A program made the translations under genes and the position numbers. A stretch of DNA of 64,000 nt from Cognatiluteimonas weifangensis. Its GTDB lineage: Bacteria; Pseudomonadota; Gammaproteobacteria; Xanthomonadales; Xanthomonadaceae. The stretch lies in the NCBI RefSeq assembly GCF_003416885.1, contig NZ_QVPD01000006.1, positions 62,001 through 126,000 on the forward strand. The letters run 5' to 3'. The notes under the pieces were generated by a model. It saw only the letters and a program-made list of their open reading frames with translations, ran no database searches and was not told the DNA's origin. This document shows positions 61,768-64,000 of the stretch, piece after piece; position 1 is the first letter of the stretch, and each line of letters starts with the position of its first letter.

Positions 61768-63279
61768 TCACAGGCCGCGCGCGGCTTCGGCCACCGCACG
61801 GAACAGCGCGCGGCCCTTGTTCATCGTCTCTTCCCACTCCAGCGCCGGGTCGGAGTCGTGGACGATGCCGGCACCGGCCTGCACGTGCAGCCGGCCGTCC
61901 TGGATCACCGCGGTGCGGATCGCGATCGCGGTGTCGGCGTCGCCATGCCAGCCGAGGTAGCCGATGGCGCCGGCGTAGACGTTGCGCCGGATCGGCTCCA
62001 GCTCGCGGATGATCTCCAGCGCGCGGATCTTGGGCGCGCCGCTGACGGTGCCGGCCGGGAAGGCCGCGCGCAGCACGTCGGCGTACGACAGCCCGGCGCG
62101 CAGCGTGCCGGTGACCTCGCTGACGATGTGCATGACGTGGCTGTAGCGCTCGATCCCGAACCGCTCGCCCACTTCCACCGTGCCGGATTCGGCGACGCGG
62201 CCGACATCGTTGCGGCCCAGGTCGATCAGCATCAGGTGCTCGGCGCGCTCCTTGGGATCGGCCAGCAGCTCGGCCTCCAGCGCCGCGTCCTGCGCCGCGG
62301 TGGCGCCGCGCGGGCGGGTGCCGGCGATCGGGCGCACGGTGACGGTGGCGCGTCCGTGCGCGTCGTGCTGCAGCCGCGCCAGGATCTCCGGCGAACTGCC
62401 GACCACCTGCATCTCGCCGACATCCAGGAAGTACAGGTAGGGCGACGGATTCAGCGCGCGCAGCGCGCGGTACACGTCGATCGGGCGCGCGGCGAAGGGC
62501 ACCGACAGCCGTTGCGACAGCACCACCTGGAACACGTCGCCGGCAGCGATGTAGGCCTTGGCCCGGGCGACCGCATCGAGGAAGCCCTCGCGGCTGAAGC
62601 CGGAGACGAACTGCGCCTCGTCCAGCACCTGCGGCTGCTGCAGCTGCGGATAGCCGGCGCCGCCATGGCGCAGGCGATGGCTGAGTTCGTCCAGGCGGCG
62701 ATTGGCGCGCGCCAGCGCCTGCGGCTGCGCCGGATCGGCGTGCACCACCAGGTACAGCCGGCCCTTGAGGTTGTCGAACACCGCCAGCTCGGTGCTGAGC
62801 ATCAGCAGGATGTCGGGGGTGCCGAGCTCGTCGGGCTTGTCGGCACCGCGCAGGCGCGGCTCCAGGTACTGCACGCATTCGAAGCCGAACCAGCCGACCA
62901 GCCCGCCGCTGAAGCCCGGCAGGCCGTCGATCCCGGGCACCGAATGCGCGGCGCGCAGGCGCTCGACCTCGGCGAAGGGATCGGCGACTTCGCGCGCTTC
63001 GACCAACTCGCCATGCTCGGTCACCGACAGGGTGTGGCCGGCGAACGCGTACACCCGCTGCGCCGGCAGGCCGATGATCGAATAGCGGCCGAAACGCTCG
63101 CCGCCCTCGACCGATTCGAACAGGTAGGTGTGCGGGCCGTCGGCCAGCTTCAGGTAGACCGACAGCGGCGTGTCGAGGTCGGACAGGACCTCGCGCACCA
63201 CCGGGATCAGGGTATGGCCGTCAGCGGCGTGACGGGCGAAGCGCTCGGCGGCTTCGGCAGGGCTCGGGCTGGTACTCAC
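61768..63279 (-). CDS. trpE: Anthranilate synthase component I
   Basis: A chorismate-binding enzyme of 503 residues. The N-terminal part holds the Trp feedback site ([19 protein letters not shown], which includes the LLES-type motif). The catalytic core has [40 protein letters not shown] and [19 protein letters not shown]. It starts on GTG 63279, with GGAAG upstream. A short reading frame rich in Trp overlaps the first 59 bases and may regulate it. Confidence 0.94.
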
Positions 63280-63388
63280 GCAGGACTTCCTTCGACGGGC
63301 AGGCAGGGACGGCGGCAACGGTGGCGGCAGGCCACCATCGCCAGCCCTGCGGGGCTGCGAACGAAGGAGTGAAGGCGCACAAGCTCAT
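63221..63388 (-). CDS. Candidate trp leader peptide
   Basis: A 55-codon frame starts at ATG 63388, four codons after an in-frame TAG, with the peptide MSLCAFTPSFAAPQGWRWWP at its start. Trp codons at positions 16, 18 and 19 (63341-63343, 63335-63337, 63332-63334) form a W-R-W-W cluster. The frame ends at 63221, 59 bases inside trpE. A TAGAGT box (63399-63394) would put transcription at or near the ATG, so the RNA might be leaderless, but the -35 is poor. Three Trp in four codons just before trpE is very unlikely by chance. Confidence 0.6.
   Translation of the reverse strand: MSLCAFTPSFAAPQGWRWWPAATVAAVPACPSKEVLREYQPEPCRSRRALRPSRR
63303..63350 (-). promoter_or_regulatory. Hairpin over the Trp codons upstream of trpE
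   Basis: On the minus strand GGCGATGGTGGC (63342-63331) pairs with GCCACCGTTGCC (63325-63314) over all 12 positions, two of them G-U. A flanking GCAGGG (63350-63345) / CCCTGC (63308-63303) stem encloses it. The 5' arm includes the Trp codons. The trpE ribosome-binding site starts about 10 bases further on. No U-run follows, which points to control of translation rather than a terminator. Confidence 0.55.
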
Positions 63389-63520
63389 GGGCCGACTCTA
63401 GCAGGCGAGGCAGCGGCGGCGCTAGCTGCGATCTCTCAGCAGGTTGTCCCTCCGGGGCCGACTCCGAGACTGGAGGTGCCCCGGATGGACCTGCAAGAAC
63501 ATGATTTCTCTCCCGGGCAC

Positions 63521-63719
63521 GGAACCTTTGCGGAGGAAGCCGGTGGGGGCCGCCCTCGTGTGGGAGACGCCGTGAATGCATCCCGAGTGCGGAAACCTCT
63601 GCGGGGAGAAGCCGGCGGCCCGGCCTGTGCGGGACACGCCGTGAATACATCCCTGTAGGCTCCTCGGCGGCATCCATGCCGCCGACGGTCCCGCACAGGC
63701 CGAGCCACCGGCTTTCGGG
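63521..63719. repeat. Composite repeat element 2, direct units and palindrome
   Basis: Two direct units start at 63521 and 63591 (spacing 70), with the same GGAA(A)CC-TGCGG, GAAGCCGG, CACGCCGTGAAT pattern as element 1. They are followed by CCCTGTAGG, the CGGCGGCAT-CC-ATGCCGCCG palindrome, and an inverted core (GTCCCGCACAGGCCGAGCCA) with a few differences from the left arm. 63280-63520 otherwise holds only the trpE leader region. Confidence 0.8.
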
Positions 63720-63778
63720 CAAGTGAGTCGGCGCTTGTAGAGAAAACCAACCAGAAGCGATGGACGCCAATCTCGCCA

Positions 63779-63895
63779 AGTCGCCGCCCGGCTGGCTGGG
63801 GGTGCGGAGAGTGGACCAGGGAGGGTCCACGACCCGACTTAAAGACAGGAGGTCGTCAGGAGGGCGCAGCACCCCCAGCCAGCCGGGCGGCGACT
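63779..63895. repeat. Composite repeat element 2, long hairpin
   Basis: The 27-base arms 63779-63805 and 63869-63895 are perfectly complementary. The inner stem GTGGACC (63811-63817) / GGTCCAC (63824-63830) is also perfect. Compared with element 1 one outer pair has changed from G-C to T-A on both sides, so the pairing is kept. Confidence 0.8.
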
Positions 63896-63937
63896 CCCGC
63901 CGAAGCCGATCCCCAGATTGCAGGCCGGGTTGGCCTG

Positions 63938-64000
63938 CGCCCCGACTTAAAGACAGGAGGTCGTCAGGAGGGCGCAGCACCCCCCACAGCCCGCGGCGGC
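63938..64000. repeat. Composite repeat element 2, second tail repeat (runs off the window)
   Basis: GACTTAAAGACAGGAGGTCG and GCGCAGCACCCCCC repeat the tail block seen in the preceding hairpin (first copy near 63838). The element continues beyond 64000. Confidence 0.75.

Follow-up and report, generated by a model that had tools for sequence, protein, structure and literature searches.

A Trp-rich leader frame that overlaps trpE out of frame in Xanthomonadaceae is a probable translational attenuator

A Trp-rich leader frame overlaps the start of trpE in the window analyzed here, a 64,000-nucleotide stretch of the Cognatiluteimonas weifangensis genome, and we consider it probable, at about three chances in four, that this leader is a translational tryptophan attenuator. 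On this reading, an overlapping Trp-rich frame is translated from an mRNA predicted to be leaderless, its codons 7 to 9 are predicted to pair with the Shine-Dalgarno (SD) sequence of trpE, and a ribosome stalled at the W-R-W-W codons would open the SD. Comparison of related sequences established the frame, the Trp run, the phase relative to trpE, a selected stop inside trpE, and the co-evolution of the two RNA arms. The positions of the features are listed in Table 1.

Table 1. Features of the leader and trpE region in the window
Feature	Position	Strand	Basis and details
Leader reading frame, 55 codons, W-R-W-W at codons 16–19	63221..63388	-	sequence and conserved overlapping frame in 79/141 family genomes; ATG at 63388, TGA at 63223–63221
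Trp-Arg-Trp-Trp codons, predicted stall site	63332..63343	-	sequence; W-R-W in 81/85 leaders; Trp codons 16, 18, and 19 at 63343–63341, 63337–63335, and 63334–63332
trpE, start GTG 63279–63277	61768..63279	-	NCBIfam TIGR00564 above cut-off
trpE Shine-Dalgarno AAGGAAGT	63285..63292	-	sequence; 5 bases before GTG
Leader stop TGA inside trpE	63221..63223	-	formed by trpE codons 19–20 (GCT GAC); GCT in 62/67 Ala codons at matching place
Predicted -10 element TAGAGT	63395..63400	-	sequence; similar hexamer in relatives
12-bp hairpin, 5' arm = Trp codons	63314..63342	-	minimum-energy fold; matching helix in consensus of 13 relatives; arms 63342–63331 and 63325–63314
Middle stems	63299..63358	-	fold; 63355–63358 and 63344–63350 pair with 63299–63308 and neighbors
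Predicted anti-SD, leader codons 7–9, pairs with trpE SD region	63362..63370	-	folds; partner positions

The original prediction described a 55-codon Trp-rich frame that ends inside trpE and overlaps it by 59 bases. Both statements held when the coordinates, the Trp codons 16, 18, and 19, and the trpE start were read again, and the leader lies in a different frame from trpE. The encoded TrpE scored 533.6 bits against NCBIfam TIGR00564 (cut-off, 517.7 bits), and trpE is followed in the window by genes for a TrpG/PabA-type amidotransferase and TrpD. An N-terminal extension of TrpE by fusion was rejected because the leader is out of frame. Three Trp codons within four codons occur at 13 places across the six frames of the window; the Trp run alone is therefore weak evidence, and the case rests on comparison and conservation.

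We located trpE in 141 of the 149 genomes of the window's family and inspected all 141 upstream regions, together with 80 named loci from the genome collection, 79 of which had a usable N-terminal anchor. Related species are treated as separate in the family counts. The sequence TGGCGATGG was found upstream of trpE in 81 of the 141 family genomes, with the same phase to trpE in 80 of these. The core pattern, [TC]GGCGATGG, was present in 85 of the 141 regions; the invariance of its letters comes from the selection of loci and was not used as evidence. This core translates as W-R-W in 81 of the 85 leaders, which bears on the original prediction directly, for it had named the lack of a conserved frame or of Trp codons in relatives as grounds for dismissal. 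The variants among the 85 leaders were GWRWW (34), WWRWW (13), AWRWW (9), GWRWR (8), and others. In 79 core carriers the leader frame passes the trpE start out of frame, and in the other six it ends before trpE. The overlapping form occurs in 30 of 51 genera, for example in Xanthomonas sp. GPE 39, Stenotrophomonas maltophilia, S. tumulicola, S. koreensis, Pseudoxanthomonas dokdonensis, and Lysobacter tabacisoli. When 13 relatives, but not the window, were used to build a covariance model, the window leader scored 53.6 bits (E = 4.9e-8), and the next match in the window's own genome had an E value of 0.2. Under stricter filters the same model matched 3 of 369 genomes of the class, all within the family, so narrow is its reach; its alignment contains antisense and spurious matches and was left out of the counts. 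The leader next to trpE is confirmed and, judging from these sequence comparisons, conserved in many members of the family.

The frame also occurs in shortened, degenerate, and missing forms. Short leaders ending before trpE were seen at L135, L142, L126, L136, L156, and L152, and also at L123, L143, L166, and L141; they have in part fewer Trp codons and lack the stop inside trpE. L123, L143, and L166 are G-R-W-R leaders missed by the core pattern, which we added by eye to the first six to give a set of nine, and L141 has the core W-R-R-W. The short leaders belong to three genera (g13, g26, and g45). Four degenerate overlapping leaders (L013, L206, L199, and L151) fall outside the pattern. Many leader-less trpE upstream regions (e.g., L131, L133, L145, L165, and L200) show, by eye, a CTGGCATACT-like promoter motif immediately upstream of trpE, which makes a transcript start close to the gene probable. 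No such leader was seen upstream of trpE at eight loci (L053–L059 and L081), which we take to be Rhodanobacteraceae; L056 has a frame ending in A-L-W-R-W farther upstream of trpE. At L064, L068, L070, and L100, from Proteobacteria outside the family, short frames close to trpE contain clusters of Trp and Arg codons as well as a GGCGATGG-like core and end before the gene; such short W-R-W frames may represent an older form of the leader. The Burkholderiales-labeled loci L085, L086, L087, and L090 share an upstream frame with G-A-W-P-W-R that ends farther before trpE, and no obvious long T-run was seen there by eye. Genera with a shortened or lost leader offer natural controls.

Although the core lies anywhere between 55 and 91 nt from the trpE start, this spacing equals 1 modulo 3 in 83 of the 85 leaders. 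The exceptions are L126, in which the leader ends before trpE, and L125, in which the core reads R-R-W-R. The trpE start codon is followed by A in 72 of the 85 loci, the window included, and in these the third possible phase would end the leader at the trpE start. The kept phase thus avoids both a fusion of the leader with trpE and, at the loci with this A, a leader stop at the trpE start, where re-initiation would make trpE depend on translation of the leader.

The place where the leader does end appears constrained as well. The leader extends 59 nt into trpE in the window and 35 nt in 54 of the 79 overlapping leaders, and the leader-frame stop falls at one identical trpE codon pair in 66 of the 79. 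The Ala codon at this site is GCT in 62 of 67 cases, versus 14 of 1298 Ala codons in trpE bodies (the control comprised the overlap loci among L009–L038). A stop at the site was found in none of the nine short leaders (Fisher, 8.7e-7; 0/10 when L141, which also has no stop there, is added) and in three of the 53 remaining upstream regions, namely the degenerate overlapping leaders of L013, L206, and L199; that of L151 stops elsewhere. When all leader-frame stops between -52 and +8 relative to the anchor were counted, the frequencies were 78/79 for overlapping leaders, 0/9 for short leaders, and 15/50 for the others. Past the stop site, 38 of the 79 frames were still open at the end of the sequence covered, at least 111 nt on, and the other 41 reached the next stop, 24 of them after at least 213 nt and 17 within 105 nt. 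These counts indicate that the leader stop inside trpE is under selection. The selection is visible in codon choice (GCT where GCC or GCG is the rule), and the claim can therefore be tested by single-base changes.

A selected stop close to the trpE start would also suit positive coupling, in which ribosomes translating the leader unfold the RNA, terminate within trpE, and step back to re-initiate at the trpE start, the leader serving mainly to ensure trpE translation. Leader translation would indeed open the SD, but the kept phase avoids a stop exactly at the trpE start, where coupling would be best, and coupling gives no reason for the Trp codons; an excess of Trp would, moreover, raise trpE. 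We regard this explanation as highly improbable.

The hexamer TAGAGT ends 6 nt before the leader ATG in the window, and transcription is predicted to begin at this ATG, near 63388. In 76 of the 85 leaders, 6 to 7 nt separate the end of a TAnnnT hexamer (mostly TAAAGT, TACAGT, or TAGAGT) from the leader start codon; in the other nine the distance is 8 to 10 nt. The leader start was taken as the nearest in-frame start with a TAnnnT hexamer close upstream, and the presence of the hexamer is thus partly a matter of choice, the tight spacing less so. From a -10-like hexamer at 6 to 7 nt, the leader mRNA is predicted to be leaderless. The segment 63430–63999 belongs to a large intergenic repeat family. 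In the window's genome this family has 243 matches, and about 40 of them are at least 325 bases long at 82 to 91% identity; three same-genus genomes have 36, 18, and 11 matches, and two others have none.

The 151-nt region of the window folded with -64.8 kcal/mol (z, -3.18), and none of 200 dinucleotide shuffles was as good. The 12-bp hairpin of the original prediction was present in this minimum-energy fold. Its relation to the trpE ribosome-binding site was refined: the hairpin stands as described, and the SD is predicted to be paired by an upstream part of the leader and not by the Trp hairpin itself. The Trp hairpin is predicted to form the apex of an extended fold in which the trpE SD is buried; among the folds listed, the middle stems and the Trp-codon tip lie above the SD pairing. 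We folded 58 leaders less than 85% alike. At least three of the six SD bases had a likely partner in the 5' arm, about 10 to 37 nt before the first core codon, in 54 of them; in L014, L136, L156, and L220, the SD was not paired with the 5' arm in the usual way. The mean unpaired probability of the SD was 0.19, versus 0.42 after the codons of the 5' arm were reordered, and it was lower in 55 of the 58 leaders. For the window leader taken alone, 20% of the codon reorderings hid the SD equally well.

Co-evolution of the arms was assessed by an arm-swap test on the same 58 leaders, in which native arm pairs are compared with row and column means. The residual for native arms was -4.0 kcal/mol, and none of 20,000 random matchings was as good; with one leader per genus (29 leaders), the residual was -4.03, again with 0 of 20,000 as good. 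Four control runs with base-shuffled arms gave +0.19, -0.50, -0.55, and -0.58. Column-wise covariation in the 13 ungapped leaders (a group without L019) was not significant, as 72 of 500 shuffles reached the score, and pairs changed on both sides numbered one by RNAalifold and two by pair count. RNAalifold on a MAFFT alignment of the 58 leaders gave only five pairs, with the arms misaligned, and this result was replaced by the single folds, the ungapped group, and the arm-swap test. The original prediction had proposed a conserved short frame with clustered Trp codons and covarying hairpin arms as the test. The frame and its Trp cluster passed it in 30 of 51 genera, and the arms passed by the arm-swap test but not by column counts. 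We conclude that, by the arm-swap test, the two RNA arms co-evolve.

This pairing at the RNA level is one of several observations that speak against a functional small protein, in which the Trp codons would matter as residues rather than as a sensor. The peptide varies greatly outside W-R-W, the window and its relatives read a pyrimidine-rich stretch in different frames, and the leader peptide had no Pfam match. A precedent exists in the Sinorhizobium meliloti leader peptide peTrpL, which functions in trans according to the portion of PMC7298713 used here, but we consider such a role for the present leader hardly credible. A trans-acting peptide was considered as well and rejected.

As the original prediction had held, no terminator U-run follows the Trp codons in the window, and the longest T-run between these codons and position +12 of trpE was three or fewer in 57 of the 58 leaders. 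A terminator is therefore unlikely, and an intrinsic terminator was rejected as a candidate. An Rfam scan of 62800–64000 gave no trp leader among nine matches up to E = 5, only sub-threshold chance families. Classical transcription attenuation of the E. coli trp type, in which the leader ribosome decides whether an antiterminator or an intrinsic terminator forms ahead of trpE, shares with our observations a clustered-Trp frame directly before trpE and a strong GC-rich hairpin. It is difficult to reconcile with the short T-runs, the missing Rfam match, the mere 55 to 91 nt between the core and the trpE start, and the continuation of the frame into trpE in 79 of the 85 leaders, and we judge it very unlikely. 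Regions free of U-runs would accommodate Rho instead: fed ribosomes would leave at the stop, trpE would remain untranslated, and Rho would terminate within trpE, so that the leader would act mainly on transcription. In E. coli, toiL ties translational repression by an upstream open reading frame (uORF) to Rho termination within the open reading frame, as described in the part of PMC12121999 considered here. Such a mechanism does not by itself account for arms that hide the SD, and we consider it unlikely as the main mode of action.

To model the stall, we placed the first core codon in the ribosomal A site and let the ribosome cover positions -15 to +15 relative to its P site. The mean openness of the SD rose from 0.19 to 0.44 on stalling at the first core codon, and to 0.50 in the strict mode, in which RNA behind the ribosome is barred from pairing. 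Stalling at the second and third Trp codons gave 0.32 and 0.30, a small average release, in the permissive mode and 0.51 and 0.52 in the strict mode. For the first codon, openness above 0.7 was reached by no leader in the strict mode and by two in the permissive mode, and the window leader stayed at 0.17 (permissive) but reached 0.53 (strict). These model values suggest that release of the SD by a stalled ribosome is plausible but partial and, in the window leader, requires the ribosome to keep the RNA behind it from pairing.

We thus return to the translational attenuator. When charged tRNA-Trp is low, a leader ribosome would stall at W-R-W-W, break the stem, and leave the trpE SD open, so that trpE would be translated. 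When Trp is ample, the ribosome would read on, cover the trpE start while reading another frame, and terminate at the selected stop, 59 nt inside trpE here and most often 35 nt inside it; the leader would then refold over the SD, and little trpE product would be made. The earlier proposal that stalling at Trp codons targets the translation of trpE and not a terminator is supported by the comparisons above; from them we infer the effect on translation, the direction of regulation, and the respective shares of start occlusion and SD pairing. Polarity on trpG and trpD and action of Rho are possible consequences.

In a broader and less secure proposal, which we nevertheless favor, an overlap switch would have taken the place of the trp terminator in the Xanthomonadaceae. 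The phase and the stop of this leaderless Trp sensor would be under selection; fed ribosomes would occlude the trpE start, and starved ones would stall and expose it. Many genera of one family appear to place the Trp sensor on translation, with a selected stop inside the enzyme gene. As for other regulators, PF01371 (the Trp repressor family) was matched in 137 of the 149 family genomes, and no match was found in the window's genome or in the same-genus genomes G002 and G054; the Pfam family is wider than TrpR, because a control also matched in Bacillus subtilis.

In Proteobacteria, amino-acid attenuation is usually presented as a terminator-based control of transcription, and the E. coli trp attenuator (trpL) has an intrinsic terminator with a U-run and a leader that ends before trpE. 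The present leader resembles trpL and the Rfam Trp leader in its Trp codons within a frame before trpE and in the proposed use of ribosome stalling as the sensor, but it differs in the absence of a U-run, the predicted pairing of the SD, and the overlap with trpE. Searches based on terminators would miss such leaders. In translational attenuators of the erm/cat type, a stalled leader ribosome frees a paired SD. Pairing of the SD by leader RNA in the uninduced state is predicted here as well, but in the erm/cat type the stall is induced by a drug, and the leader is not a sensor for an amino acid that the target makes.

Several described leaders share single traits with this one, as far as the excerpts drawn on here go. 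The S. meliloti trpL (rnTrpL) is a leaderless Trp leader frame before trpE, as is predicted for the present one, but it has 14 codons and works by transcription attenuation that releases an sRNA, and no trpE overlap is reported in those excerpts (PMC7298713, PMC10117765). The actinobacterial cys leaders and the LEU element are leader peptides without obvious terminators, and in LEU the leucine codons pair with the SD; these are predictions, for other amino acids and another phylum, and the same extracts of PMC1262725 describe no out-of-frame overlap. E. coli toiL represses topAI translation and through it alters Rho termination; stalling in this uORF relieves translational repression of the next gene, as proposed here, but toiL senses ribosome-targeting antibiotics and not an amino acid, and the share of Rho was demonstrated there (PMC12121999, in part). 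In mycobacteria, the speed of elongation through leaderless poly-Cys uORFs governs translation of the following gene, according to the section used of a review (PMC9031893). They resemble our leader, itself predicted to be leaderless, as short frames with a run of regulatory codons for the amino acid of the target pathway, here Trp codons before trpE, but they concern cysteine and Actinobacteria.

Among the matches listed in a search of the open-licence literature, none dealt with a Trp leader in Xanthomonas or Stenotrophomonas. The leader may be a new form of ribosome-mediated attenuation, and an earlier prediction of it may exist. In eukaryotes, overlapping uORFs such as those of ATF4 overlap the main start out of frame and block initiation there until stress. 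The out-of-frame overlap of an upstream frame with the main start is common to both, but the ATF4 type depends on scanning ribosomes and eIF2 control and involves neither a codon-specific stall nor SD pairing. If the proposal is true, the overlap switch would parallel, in bacteria, the logic by which overlapping uORFs govern eukaryotic stress genes, and its regulatory stop would lie inside the coding sequence of the enzyme that it controls.
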